From: Pseudoclavibacter triregionum
Lineage (GTDB): Bacteria > Actinomycetota > Actinomycetes > Actinomycetales > Microbacteriaceae
Assembly: GCA_910822395.1 (NCBI GenBank)
Contig: OU365335.1
Span: 1,860,001-1,924,000, forward strand
Reading direction: 5' to 3'
Length of the DNA stretch: 64,000 nt
The notes below the pieces were generated by a model. It made no database searches, was not told the DNA's origin, and worked only from the letters and a program-made list of their open reading frames with translations. This document shows, piece by piece, positions 54,551-60,782 of this stretch. Numbering within the stretch: the stretch's first letter is position 1; the number at the start of each line of letters is the position of its first letter. Both the position numbers and the translations under genes were made by a program.

Positions 54551-56446
<1,896 letters not shown>

Positions 56447-56450
56447 GCCC

Positions 56451-57758
56451 GTGCGGTACGCGATCCCCGTCGCCATCGGCCGCGCCGTCCGCGTCGCCGC
56501 CCGCATCCGCAAGCCGGGCGGCGGCTCGGCCATCCCGGGCGTCGTCGTGAACCGGATCGCGCCGGGCTACCTGCGCGCGACCCTCGACGGCTTCCCGGGC
56601 GGGCTCGCCATCGTCACCGGCTCCTCCGGGAAGTCGACGACGACGAAGATGCTCGTCGAGATCCTCCGCGCCCACGGCGCCGACCTCTTCACGAACCCCT
56701 CGACCGCGAACATCGCGCAGGGGCTCACCTCGGCCGTCATCGAGCAGGCCGACTGGAAGGGGGAGGTGGCGGGGGAGATCGGCGTCCTCGAGATGGATGA
56801 GGGCCACGGCGCGGTCGTCACGCGCGGGCTCAGCCCGAAGGCCGTCGTGCTCACGAACGTCATGGTGGACCAGATCGACCGCTTCCACGATCCCGAGATG
56901 GTCGCGGAGATGCTCCGGAAGATCGCCTCGCGGGCGACCGGCGCCGTCGCCTACAACGCCGACGACGCGCTGCTGCTCACGCTCGTCGCGGGCCTCGACG
57001 CCTCCGTCGAGCGGCTCCCCTTCGGCGCGAGCCGCGAGCTCGTCGAGGCCGCCCCGCACGGGCTCGGACTCGCGCAGACCGCCGCCGAGCGGCTGCCGGA
57101 CGGCACGGGCGTGCGCCTCGTCGCGCTCGACGGCCGCCGGGCGACGCTCGAGGTCGAGGGCGCGCCCCTCGAGCTCACGATGCCGGCGCGCGGCCTCCAC
57201 TACGGCATGGACGCCGCGGGCGCGATCGCCGGCGCCCTCGCCATCCTCGGCCGGGATCGCTTCGACCTCGCCACCGCGAAGGCCGCGTTCGAACGCCTCG
57301 AGCCCGTCTTCGGCCGCGGCGAGCAGACCGTCGTGCGGGGGAAGACCGTCGAGTTCGTGCTCGTGCAGAACCCAGCCTCCCTGCAGCTCAACATCGACGG
57401 GCTCGACGAGGGCCTCGAGCAGGTGCTCTTCGCCGTCGGCTCCGACGTGCGCGACGAGTCGTACCTCTGGAGCACCGACCTCGCCCGCCTCGGCCGCGTG
57501 CAGATCGTCACGGGATCGAAGGCGCACGACGCCGCGCTCCACCTCGCCTACGACGACGTCGAGATCGAGCGCGTCGAGCCGGACCTCCACCGCGCCCTCG
57601 ACGACTTCCTCGCCCAGCCCGAGCCCTCGCGCGGCGTGAAGACGATCATCTTCACGGCGGACGCCATGCGCCGCACGCGCCTCCACCTCGGGCTCGCGGG
57701 CGGCGACAAGGACGCCGCCCCGAAGGTCGGCGCAGCGCAGAAGGGCGACGCCTCGTGA
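56451..57758 (+). CDS. murT: MurT-like Mur ligase (lipid II amidotransferase subunit), without zinc ribbon
   Basis: A 435-residue Mur-ligase-fold protein. In the MurT-GatD complex MurT activates the alpha-carboxyl of D-Glu in lipid II with ATP. The ATP loop is TGSSGKSTTTK (about 57-67), followed by NPSTANIAQGL, VVLTNVMVDQIDRF and YGMDAAGAIAGAL. Characterised MurT proteins carry a four-Cys zinc ribbon in the central domain. This protein has no cysteine at all and a short substitute around residues 195-230. The start is GTG, four bases after rpoD; it overlaps gatD by four bases. Confidence 0.85.
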   Translation: MRYAIPVAIGRAVRVAARIRKPGGGSAIPGVVVNRIAPGYLRATLDGFPGGLAIVTGSSGKSTTTKMLVEILRAHGADLFTNPSTANIAQGLTSAVIEQADWKGEVAGEIGVLEMDEGHGAVVTRGLSPKAVVLTNVMVDQIDRFHDPEMVAEMLRKIASRATGAVAYNADDALLLTLVAGLDASVERLPFGASRELVEAAPHGLGLAQTAAERLPDGTGVRLVALDGRRATLEVEGAPLELTMPARGLHYGMDAAGAIAGALAILGRDRFDLATAKAAFERLEPVFGRGEQTVVRGKTVEFVLVQNPASLQLNIDGLDEGLEQVLFAVGSDVRDESYLWSTDLARLGRVQIVTGSKAHDAALHLAYDDVEIERVEPDLHRALDDFLAQPEPSRGVKTIIFTADAMRRTRLHLGLAGGDKDAAPKVGAAQKGDAS

Positions 57759-58513
57759 CCCGGACGATCCGCATCCTCAGCCTCGCCCACTCGCTCGCGA
57801 ACGCCCACGGCGACGCCGAGAACGCCGACGTGCTCGTGCGACGCCTGCGCTGGCGCGGGCTCGACGCCGAGCTCGTGCGCGTCGACGCCGTCTCGGACTG
57901 GCCCGCCGAGGGGCCGGACGCCATCGTCATCGGCGGCCCCACCGACCCCGAGCTGCCGCGCGCCGCGGCGCTCCTGCGCGAGCTCGAGTCGACAGGGCGC
58001 CTGTCGTCCGCACGGGAGTCGGGCGTCCCCACGCTCGCGGTCGCCGGCGGCTGGGAGCTGCTCGGCGGCGGCGCGGAGCTCGCGGACGGCTCGCGCGTCG
58101 CGGGCCTCGGGCTCGCGCCCGGCCGCGGCGTCCCGCGCGGCTCTCGCGCTGCGGACGACCTCATCGTCGACGGTGCATTCGGCCGCCTCGTCGGCTTCGA
58201 GAACCACGACCGCGACCTTCTCGTCGAGGGCGAGGGCACGGGGCAGGACCTCGGCTCCGTCGCCTTCGGCGTCGGCCGCGGCGACGGGCGCGAGGGGCTC
58301 GTGCTCGGGCCGCTCACGGCGACCCGGATGCACGGGCCGGCGCTTGCGCGGAACCCGATCCTCGCCGACCGCATGCTCGCCGCGATCCTCGAGCGGATGC
58401 CCGAGCCGATGGCGCTGCCGGACGCCGACGAGCGGACCGCCCGCGTCGACGGGTACGCCCGCGAGACGCGGCTGCGGACGCTCCGCGAGCGGGGGCTCGA
58501 GGAGACGGCGTAG
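57755..58513 (+). CDS. gatD: GatD-like glutamine amidotransferase subunit lacking the catalytic cysteine
   Basis: A 252-residue CobQ/CobB-type glutaminase subunit, partner of MurT. Family landmarks are present: VIGGPTDPE, GFENH and the catalytic-His segment MHGPALARN. The nucleophile loop, normally LxxCGGYQxLG, reads LAVAGGWELLG, with Ala97 (codon GCC, 58043-58045) where Cys should be; the protein has no Cys. It should therefore not hydrolyse glutamine. GTG 57755 overlaps the murT stop codon (GTGA). The family is clear; the loss of activity is inferred. Confidence 0.85.
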   Translation: MTRTIRILSLAHSLANAHGDAENADVLVRRLRWRGLDAELVRVDAVSDWPAEGPDAIVIGGPTDPELPRAAALLRELESTGRLSSARESGVPTLAVAGGWELLGGGAELADGSRVAGLGLAPGRGVPRGSRAADDLIVDGAFGRLVGFENHDRDLLVEGEGTGQDLGSVAFGVGRGDGREGLVLGPLTATRMHGPALARNPILADRMLAAILERMPEPMALPDADERTARVDGYARETRLRTLRERGLEETA

Positions 58514-58691: not shown

Positions 58692-60782
58692 GTGGCCGCC
58701 GCCGAGCCGTACTCCGCCCGCCATCTCTCCGTCCTCGACGGCCTCGAGGCGGTCCGGAAGCGCCCCGGCATGTACATCGGCTCGACCGACTCGCGCGGCC
58801 TCATGCACTGCCTCTGGGAGATCATCGACAACTCGGTCGACGAGGCCCTCGCCGGCTTCGGCGACACGATCACCATCGGCCTCGAGCGCGACGGCTCCGT
58901 CTCGGTCGCCGACCGCGGCCGCGGCGTCCCCGTCGACATCGAGCCGAAGACCGGCCTCTCCGGCGTCGAGGTCGTCTACACGAAGCTCCACGCGGGCGGC
59001 AAGTTCGACGCCGCGAACTACGGCGCGGCCGGCGGCCTCCACGGCGTCGGCGCCTCCGTCGTGAACGCGCTCTCCGCCCGCCTCGACGTCGAGGTCGACC
59101 GCGGCGGCAAGACCTACGCCATGAGCTTCCGCCGCGGCGAGCCCGGCGTCTTCGCCGACGGAAAGGACGGCCCGAGCCCCGACTCGCCCTTCACCCCCTT
59201 CACGAGCGGCTCCGAGCTCAAGGTCGTCGGCAAGGTCGCGAAGGGCGTCACCGGCACGCGCGTGCGCTACTGGGCCGACCCGCAGATCTTCATCAAGGAC
59301 GCCGTCTTCTCGCTCGACGACCTCCTCGGCCGCGCCCGCCAGACCGCCTTCCTCATCCCGGGCCTCGAGATCGTCCTCGAGGACCGCCGCGGCGAGGGGA
59401 CGCCCGAGCAGCACTCCTTCAAGTTCGACGGCGGCATCTCCGAGTTCGCGGAGTACCTCGCGCCCGACGCCCCGACGACCGACACCTGGCGGCTCGAGGG
59501 CGACGGCGACTACCGCGAGACCGTCCCGATGCTCGACGACGAGGGCCACATGGTCTCGCGCGAGGTCGAGCGCACGATGCACGTCGACGTCGCGATGCGC
59601 TGGGGCACCGGCTACGACACGACCGTGAAGAGCTTCGTGAACATCATCGCGACGCCGAAGGGCGGCACCCACCTCGCCGGCTTCGAGCAGGGGCTGCTCC
59701 GCACCGTGCGCTCCGAAGTCGAGAAGAACGCCCGCCGCCTCAAGGTCGGCAACGACAAGCTCGAGAAGGAGGACGTGCTCGCGGGGCTCACCGCGGTCGT
59801 CACCGTGCGCATCCCCGAGCCGCAGTTCGAGGGCCAGACGAAGGAGGTGCTCGGCACGCCGCCGGCGCGCGCGATCGTCGCGAACGTCGTCGCGCAGGGC
59901 CTCCGCGAGCGCTTCGCCGCGACCGGCCGCCAGCAGAAGGCCGAGACCTCGATGCTCCTCGACAAGGTCGTCGCCGAGATGAAGTCCCGCATCTCCGCGC
60001 GCGCCCACAAGGAGACGCAGCGCCGCAAGAACGCGCTCGAGTCGTCGTCCCTCCCGGCGAAGCTCGTCGACTGCCGCACGAACGACGTCGCCGCCTCCGA
60101 GCTCTTCATCGTCGAGGGCGACTCGGCGCTCGGCACCGCGAAGCCCGCGCGCAACTCCGAGTTCCAGGCGCTCCTGCCCATCCGCGGCAAGATCCTCAAC
60201 GTGCAGAAGGCCTCGCTCGCCGACATGCTCTCGAACGCCGAGTGCGCGAACATCATCCAGGTCATCGGGGCCGGCTCCGGCCGCAGCTTCGACCTCGATG
60301 CGGCGCGCTACGGCAAGGTGATCCTCATGTCGGACGCCGACGTCGACGGCGCCCACATCCGCACGCTCCTGCTCACGCTCTTCTTCCGCTACATGCGGCC
60401 GATGCTCGACGCCGGGCGCGTCTACGCCGCCGTGCCGCCGCTGCACCGCGTCATCGTCATGAACCAGGGCAAGAAGCCGAACGAGACGATCTACACGTAC
60501 TCGGAGCAGGAGCTGCACGCGCTCATCAAGAAGCTCGAGCGGGCGGGCAAGCGCTACGCCGACCCGATCCAGCGCTACAAGGGCCTCGGCGAGATGGACG
60601 AGGACCAGCTCTGGGAGACGACGATGAACCCCGCCGCGCGCCTGCTGCGCCGCGTCACCGTGCAGGATGCCGCGGCCGCGGAGCGCGTCTTCGAGCTCCT
60701 CATGGGCAACGAGGTCGCCCCGCGCAAGGACTTCATCGTGCAGGGCGCCCAGCACATCGACGCTGAGCTCATCGACGCCTGA
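58692..60782 (+). CDS. parE: DNA topoisomerase IV subunit B
   Basis: The ATPase subunit of a type IIA topoisomerase. The 696-residue protein has the GHKL ATP site (EIIDNSVDEALAG, GGLHGVGASVVNALS), the TOPRIM motif EGDSALG near residue 474, DADVDGAHIRTL near 548 and the C-terminal RYKGLGEMDEDQLWETTM. Location beside rpoD, away from an origin, favours ParE over GyrB; gyrB would be expected elsewhere. GTG 58692 follows GAGGAG. Its stop codon overlaps the azlC start (TGATG). Confidence 0.88.
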   Translation: MAAAEPYSARHLSVLDGLEAVRKRPGMYIGSTDSRGLMHCLWEIIDNSVDEALAGFGDTITIGLERDGSVSVADRGRGVPVDIEPKTGLSGVEVVYTKLHAGGKFDAANYGAAGGLHGVGASVVNALSARLDVEVDRGGKTYAMSFRRGEPGVFADGKDGPSPDSPFTPFTSGSELKVVGKVAKGVTGTRVRYWADPQIFIKDAVFSLDDLLGRARQTAFLIPGLEIVLEDRRGEGTPEQHSFKFDGGISEFAEYLAPDAPTTDTWRLEGDGDYRETVPMLDDEGHMVSREVERTMHVDVAMRWGTGYDTTVKSFVNIIATPKGGTHLAGFEQGLLRTVRSEVEKNARRLKVGNDKLEKEDVLAGLTAVVTVRIPEPQFEGQTKEVLGTPPARAIVANVVAQGLRERFAATGRQQKAETSMLLDKVVAEMKSRISARAHKETQRRKNALESSSLPAKLVDCRTNDVAASELFIVEGDSALGTAKPARNSEFQALLPIRGKILNVQKASLADMLSNAECANIIQVIGAGSGRSFDLDAARYGKVILMSDADVDGAHIRTLLLTLFFRYMRPMLDAGRVYAAVPPLHRVIVMNQGKKPNETIYTYSEQELHALIKKLERAGKRYADPIQRYKGLGEMDEDQLWETTMNPAARLLRRVTVQDAAAAERVFELLMGNEVAPRKDFIVQGAQHIDAELIDA

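Follow-up and report, generated by a model that had tools for sequence, protein, structure and literature searches.

The analysed window, a 64,000-nucleotide stretch of the Pseudoclavibacter triregionum genome (contig OU365335.1), contains two overlapping genes whose products resemble the subunits of the MurT/GatD isoglutaminyl synthase, but whose GatD-type subunit has lost the catalytic Cys. The pair is flanked upstream by a gene that we take to be rpoD, from its similarity among loci and from its motifs, and downstream by one that, judged from its sequence, is presumably parE. The genes and residues on which the following argument relies are:

54551..56446, forward strand: rpoD (sigma A, presumed), upstream border of the locus by conserved synteny
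56451..57758, forward strand: MurT-type Mur ligase subunit, Cys-free, with a GTG start, 435 amino acids, and Mur_ligase_M and MurT_C domains
56631..56633, forward strand: MurT P-loop Lys61 (GSSGKS), present in all 151 Cys-less MurT
57201..57212, forward strand: MurT Tyr251 and Asp254, in place of an Asn pair (Streptococcus pneumoniae N270/N273 by alignment) and common to most type II/III Cys-less MurT
57378..57380, forward strand: MurT Ser310 in QNPAS, a Gly in 54 of 58 Cys-type MurT
57453..57455, forward strand: MurT Asp335 (equivalent to Staphylococcus aureus Asp349), found in all 139 type II/III MurT
57755..58513, forward strand: GatD-type subunit, Cys-less, with a GTG start, 252 amino acids, and a GATase_3 domain
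58043..58045, forward strand: GatD Ala97 codon GCC, aligned with the catalytic Cys94 of S. aureus GatD
58145..58147, forward strand: GatD Arg131 (the glutamine-docking Arg128 of S. aureus), conserved among 144 of the 151 Cys-less GatD
58331..58333, forward strand: GatD His193 (S. aureus His189), kept in the window and lost in 59 of 151 Cys-less GatD
58692..60782, forward strand: parE (topoisomerase IV subunit B, presumed), downstream border of the locus by conserved synteny

The murT-like frame comes first and shares four nucleotides with the gatD-like frame, and both are open. Pfam matches to Mur_ligase_M and MurT_C in the former and to GATase_3 in the latter each exceeded their cut-offs, and the pair displays the adjacency and domain make-up expected of a MurT/GatD isoglutaminyl synthase. 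The NCBIfam equivalog cut-offs were missed by far (82.4 against 800 bits for NF045635 and 47.5 against 400 bits for NF045636). The source genome (2,360,996 bp in one contig, 90.29% complete) contains a single MurT_C match and a single near-full GATase_3 match (profile positions 27–195 of 196), both being the window's own, while four further GATase_3 matches, three of them above the cut-off, cover just 33–111 positions and presumably belong to other class I amidotransferases. A second intact murT/gatD pair, a concern raised by the initial annotation, was not found in this 90% complete genome.

Alignment of GatD with phmmer paired S. aureus GLTICGGYQFLG with window TLAVAGGWELLG, placing Ala97 opposite the catalytic Cys94, while the His loop MHGPALARNP (His193), the FENH motif, and Arg131 were all present. 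The window GatD, modeled by AlphaFold2 with a mean predicted local distance difference test score (pLDDT) of 96.2, does not possess the Cys–His catalytic pair of class I glutamine amidotransferases. Recounting the translations gave zero Cys residues in either protein, and the initial description of Ala97 (GCC) at the nucleophile position, of a kept His loop and FENH, and of two Cys-free proteins was thus borne out. In S. aureus GatD, the C94A, H189A, and R128A variants are each described as devoid of glutaminase activity (PMC5871853), and C94S and C94G as abolishing amidation (PMC6113224). Because C94A kills the S. aureus glutaminase, the window GatD should, by analogy, be unable to free ammonia from glutamine, and no glutamine hydrolysis is expected of it.

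The loss extends over most of Microbacteriaceae, a family of soil and water bacteria. We aligned 209 distinct pairs, 168 from Microbacteriaceae and 41 from other families of the same order (family codes f3, f4, f6, f8, f12, f15, f17, and f19). Identical sequences and ten duplicate loci were excluded, as were loci at which the two subunits were not both read (L164 has no GatD). The GatD Cys was present in all 41 pairs of the other families and in 17 of the 168 Microbacteriaceae pairs; in the remaining 151 it was replaced by Gly, Ala, His, Ser, Asn, or Thr. Of 149 sampled Microbacteriaceae genomes, 108 gave GatD relatives in a protein search, and a MurT profile found a strong MurT (E < 1e-30) in 122 (the GatD of two, G035 and G143, was not read) and no MurT in 27. 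Types II to V were assigned to the pairs by a script according to motif. In a quick MurT tree (106 rows), types II and III (99) and types IV and V (95) formed two separate clades, but a single clade of Cys-less MurT was not rejected by the approximately unbiased test (p 0.348), and the Cys may have been lost once or twice. The window's own genus code is represented by two genomes, whose Cys-less pairs (L053 and L060) are of another type. Genomes G111 and G145 each hold a second, different Cys-less pair (L071 and L081) with no rpoD upstream.

The Cys-less GatD proteins are nevertheless constrained. Of the 151, 144 retain the docking Arg128, against 92 that retain the catalytic His189, and this order of constraint suggests a pocket that still binds something amino-acid-like. 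The median ratio of nonsynonymous to synonymous substitution rates (dN/dS) was 0.16 for type II (12 pairs) and 0.12 for type III (16 pairs), compared with 0.15 for Cys-type GatD of the family (four finite values of five comparisons, one having given no finite dS) and 0.16 for a further 11 Cys-type pairs. Purifying selection on Cys-less GatD is therefore undiminished and similar to that on the Cys-type.

In MurT, none of the 151 Cys-less proteins departs from the P-loop Lys or the Mg-binding Glu, and the Asp349 position is conserved in every one of the 139 sequences of types II and III and in none of the 12 of types IV and V. Comparison of these 139 with 58 Cys-type sequences, requiring a residue to exceed 80% in each group, revealed six switches from the Cys-type to types II/III, namely Thr58Ser, Thr62Ser, Asn251Tyr, Asn254Asp, Gly310Ser, and Arg357Lys. 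Positions 251 and 254 would correspond, allowing for an estimated numbering offset, to N270 and N273 of S. pneumoniae MurT, which are thought to touch adenine (PMC6085368); the window, with Tyr251 and Asp254, does not have this adenine-pocket Asn pair. The initial annotation had further pointed to the absence of the MurT zinc ribbon. The absence itself was confirmed, but we rejected it as a mark of new function, since most Cys-type MurT also have no CxxC (33 of the 41 other-family pairs and 14 of the 17 Microbacteriaceae pairs); moreover, the structure paper places the zinc ribbon in just a subset of bacteria (PMC6113224).

The genomic position of the Cys-less pairs is conserved as well. Among the 119 testable pairs, meaning those with at least 500 nucleotides read upstream (of the 151, 30 were shorter and two had no feature call), rpoD lies directly upstream in 115, the exceptions being L071, L081, L175, and L177. 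With 97 of the 119, parE was also found, inverted in some genera, and the rest mostly have either no downstream sequence or racemase genes there. By contrast, neither rpoD nor parE appeared in the read flanks (0.9–2 kb upstream) of the 16 testable Cys-type family pairs, one of the 17 being too short for this test, or of the 41 other-family pairs. In the 14 family genomes with a Cys-type pair only, no module gene matched between rpoD and parE, and the gap between the two was mostly 460–700 bases (about 0 to 1.6 kb). The window's own rpoD carries in its N-terminal region (54614–55104) a 102-bp tandem repeat of 4.8 copies with 93% matches, made of Ala/Lys-rich units.

Analysis of this interval across genomes revealed a second, unrelated module related to CofE. 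Of 80 named loci, all treated as belonging to Microbacteriaceae even where a record title was uninformative or wrong, four were set aside as rpoD was not detected (L213 and L229, both short contigs, L239, and L287). The resulting 76 rpoD–parE intervals comprised 47 with MurT/GatD and 29 with a CofE-like gene, none with both and none with neither, and all 47 GatD proteins were Cys-less (41 Gly, four Ala, and two His). Both modules are represented within Microbacterium, and MurT/GatD loci also occur in Agromyces, Cryobacterium, Curtobacterium, Plantibacter, Herbiconiux, Subtercola, Agreia, Leifsonia, Labedella, and others. Two records titled Planococcus sp. APC 4015 (L208) and Stenotrophomonas maltophilia P13 (L224) display Microbacterium-like rpoD–parE loci with ParE identities of 91% and 86%, respectively, to the Microbacterium-type query, and are probably mislabelled or contaminated.

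At the genome level, CofE-like profile matches were found in 21 of 27 MurT-less and three of 122 MurT-bearing family genomes (149 genomes, Fisher p 3e-17, uncorrected for kinship). The modules are swapped within eight genus codes (g7, g9, g54, g55, g70, g73, g77, and g78), although in g77 the genome with MurT gives an additional weak CofE-like match elsewhere. In 20 rpoD–parE stretches fetched from genomes of this MurT-less kind, a CofE-like gene (PF01996) was present in 18 and ATPgrasp_ST in 17; one stretch was empty (L207), and in another the CofE-like gene lay just outside the fetched sequence (L205). Thirty-five genomes, drawn from the MurT-less set, from order-level draws, and from two partial carriers, were searched again for MurT/GatD; the type IV/V GatD profile matched one (G005), which was also alone in having MurT_C above the cut-off, and four genomes gave weak sub-cut-off MurT_C matches. 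CofE is described as activating a carboxylate with guanosine triphosphate (GTP) and joining it to an amino acid (PMC10861534). Since two unrelated carboxylate activators take each other's place between rpoD and parE, sometimes with a racemase alongside, the alternation points to one shared job for Cys-less MurT/GatD and the CofE-like protein, the amide-bonding of an amino acid. Elsewhere in the order, outside Microbacteriaceae, a CofE-like domain stands C-terminal in a frame resembling an asparagine-synthetase-type amidotransferase (L288, L290, L292–L294, and L297, three of them examined with Pfam), and the 16 genomes with it had no strong MurT match.

Further genes accompany the two modules. 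A racemase, in the form of an Ala_racemase N/C tandem, was found at 12 of 47 named MurT/GatD loci, among them the Agreia locus L233, and at 17 of 29 CofE-like loci, while ATP-grasp was found at two of 47 and 28 of 29, respectively. Among the 20 fetched stretches, 12 contained an alanine-racemase-like tandem, usually a full-length and a truncated gene, and two, both CofE loci, contained a class III aminotransferase (Pfam Aminotran_3) that in our reading resembles EctB. The racemase-like genes overlap in a two-gene operon (e.g. L108:3210-4990, L192:3932-5535, and L044:598-2426) that occurs with either ligase and possibly encodes a heteromeric diamino acid racemase. The EctB-like genes (L188:2705-4030 and L206) lie within the rpoD–parE locus beside the CofE-like ligase, which suggests a local supply of diaminobutyrate (Dab).

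In group B walls, the alpha-carboxyl of D-glutamate (D-Glu) carries and starts the cross-bridge, and cross-linking through this carboxyl has served as a taxonomic marker for decades. Microbacteriaceae are described as B-type (PMC3655929), with D-ornithine (D-Orn) or Dab reported in Rhodoluna (PMC4156110), in Microbacterium, where L-Lys is also reported (PMC10757982), in Agromyces (PMC5217419), and in Subtercola and Agreia, D-Orn being the one given for Agreia (PMC5945732). Among the matches listed from open-licence PubMed Central (PMC) papers, none named a ligase that builds the group B bridge. On balance, we consider it probable that the window MurT/GatD is such an enzyme, an amino-acid ligase acting on the D-Glu alpha-carboxyl, with GatD as its docking subunit. 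The complex would be a derived MurT/GatD in which glutamine hydrolysis was lost. MurT, in the manner of Mur ligases, would convert the D-Glu alpha-carboxyl of a peptidoglycan precursor into an acyl phosphate; the canonical MurT reaction is itself thought to run through an acyl phosphate on this carboxyl (PMC6085368). In place of ammonia, the amino group of an amino acid, either glycine or a diamino acid (Orn, Dab, or Lys), would then attack the acyl phosphate and form the first bond of the cross-bridge. GatD would be retained as a structural subunit, in which the old glutamine site and its Arg131 may serve to dock the amino acid to be joined. The initial proposal of an amidase turned group B bridge ligase has accordingly gained from the Cys loss in 151 of 168 pairs against none of 41 elsewhere, from the dedicated rpoD–parE locus, from the CofE-like replacement, and from the occasional racemase genes, and has shed its zinc-ribbon argument.

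Several observations weigh against this assignment. The initial annotation had proposed a check of whether Cys loss follows wall type; among the families sampled, the loss is widespread in Microbacteriaceae and seen in no other, but 14 of 149 family genomes have a Cys-type pair only, with no module between rpoD and parE, and six carry neither module. The idea that every Microbacteriaceae genome has one of the modules was thus rejected, as 20 of 149 have neither a Cys-less pair nor a CofE-like gene, and a group B wall in one of them would mean that a further bridge route exists. The association is known from a single family, and within it kinship inflates the exclusion statistics, making the within-genus swaps the better evidence. 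Two genomes (G049 and G112) carry both modules. In L239 and L287, the sequence preceding parE (about 5.2 and 7.0 kb, respectively) contains neither rpoD nor one of the modules, which argues against a universal layout. As many as 35 of the 47 named MurT/GatD loci are without a racemase, and the source genome has a single Ala_racemase_C match and no racemase tandem. Module choice did not prove to be a simple marker of wall subtype or diamino acid, both modules occurring within Microbacterium, although no species-by-species chemistry was compared. The N267Y variant of S. aureus MurT, at a position that presumably equals S. pneumoniae N270, is described as inactive (PMC6113224); most Cys-less MurT carry a Tyr at an Asn of this pocket, and their nucleotide use must therefore have changed or been lost, so that the altered pocket could reflect either a new nucleotide or a dead site. 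Finally, in Intrasporangium calvum, whose wall is group A, the D-Glu alpha-carboxyl is also reported to bear a glycine (PMC3035309).

These points leave room for other explanations. MurT might still amidate D-Glu with free ammonium, GatD acting as a scaffold; such an ammonia-fed isoglutaminyl synthase would fit the retained P-loop and Asp349 and the S. aureus complex, which is reported to use ammonia at pH 8.5 while still requiring GatD (PMC6085368). It leaves the CofE-like alternation, the racemase neighbours, and the MurT active-site switches unexplained, and it would amidate the very carboxyl that is established to bear the bridge in group B walls; we therefore regard it as unlikely. Marginally less likely still is an amino-acid ligase of the same locus that serves another substrate or bridge step, for instance the second bridge residue or another envelope polymer. 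The frequent presence of a further possible ligase (ATPgrasp_ST) and the two different Cys-less pairs of G111 and G145 would agree with divided steps, but descent from an enzyme of the D-Glu alpha-carboxyl, together with the CofE-like alternation, favours the same carboxyl. That the pair is catalytically dead and retained for structure or regulation appears very improbable: the lost Cys, the lost His in 59 of 151, and the exchange of the adenine-pocket Asn residues for Tyr and Asp in most type II/III proteins speak for it, but the P-loop Lys and Mg-binding Glu never vary, dN/dS resembles that of Cys-type relatives, and the pair alternates with a ligase. Local inactivation or a sequencing error in the source genome, already doubted in the initial annotation, is refuted by the absence of the Cys from 151 of 168 family pairs; the open frames and the two base changes needed speak against it as well, and it merits practically no weight.

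Beyond the assignment of the window pair as a bridge ligase, a broader model is conceivable, which we offer tentatively and with somewhat less than even confidence. The rpoD–parE interval would be an assembly locus for the group B bridge, holding one of two unrelated, interchangeable amino-acid ligases, either Cys-less MurT/GatD, which perhaps evolved twice, or the CofE-like protein, mostly with an ATP-grasp. At part of the loci, a racemase-like pair would supply the D-diamino acid and, in a few cases, an EctB-like enzyme would supply Dab; GatD would have passed from glutaminase to docking subunit, and the Tyr/Asp pocket of MurT may use GTP, as CofE does. If true, a gene for the group B bridge, its non-homologous replacement, and perhaps the racemase and the Dab supply would be identified, which would explain the unusual wall cross-links of Microbacteriaceae. 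It would also present a glutaminase subunit that keeps its place in an enzyme after its chemistry is lost, and a Mur ligase partner that exchanges ammonia for an amino acid. The within-genus swaps in Microbacterium make the reading open to a gene-removal test.

Comparison with known systems places the proposed ligase apart from the bridge builders of group A walls. FemX, FemA, and MurM take their amino acids from aminoacyl-tRNA and act at the third residue, on an amino group, and not at the D-Glu carboxyl. MurC to MurF and folylpolyglutamate synthase add amino acids via an acyl phosphate and share the Mur ligase middle and C-terminal domains with MurT. MurT differs from them in its GatD partner and in an N-terminal domain described as truncated (PMC6113224). 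The F420-0:gamma-glutamyl ligase CofE/FbiB (PF01996) would be alike in the proposed acyl-phosphate joining of a carboxyl to an amino acid, and a CofE-like gene swaps in at the same locus, but it belongs to another protein family, and the CofE-like proteins of the locus are putative ligases by family likeness. The closest relative is the MurT/GatD isoglutaminyl synthase of S. aureus, S. pneumoniae, and Mycobacterium tuberculosis, with which the window pair shares the gene pair and its order, the Mur ligase core with MurT_C, the GATase_3 fold, the P-loop, the Mg-binding Glu, MurT Asp349, and GatD Arg128 and His189. It differs from this synthase in the absence of the catalytic Cys and, by analogy, of glutaminase activity, in the six MurT switches, in scores far below the NCBIfam cut-offs, and in a locus of its own between rpoD and parE.

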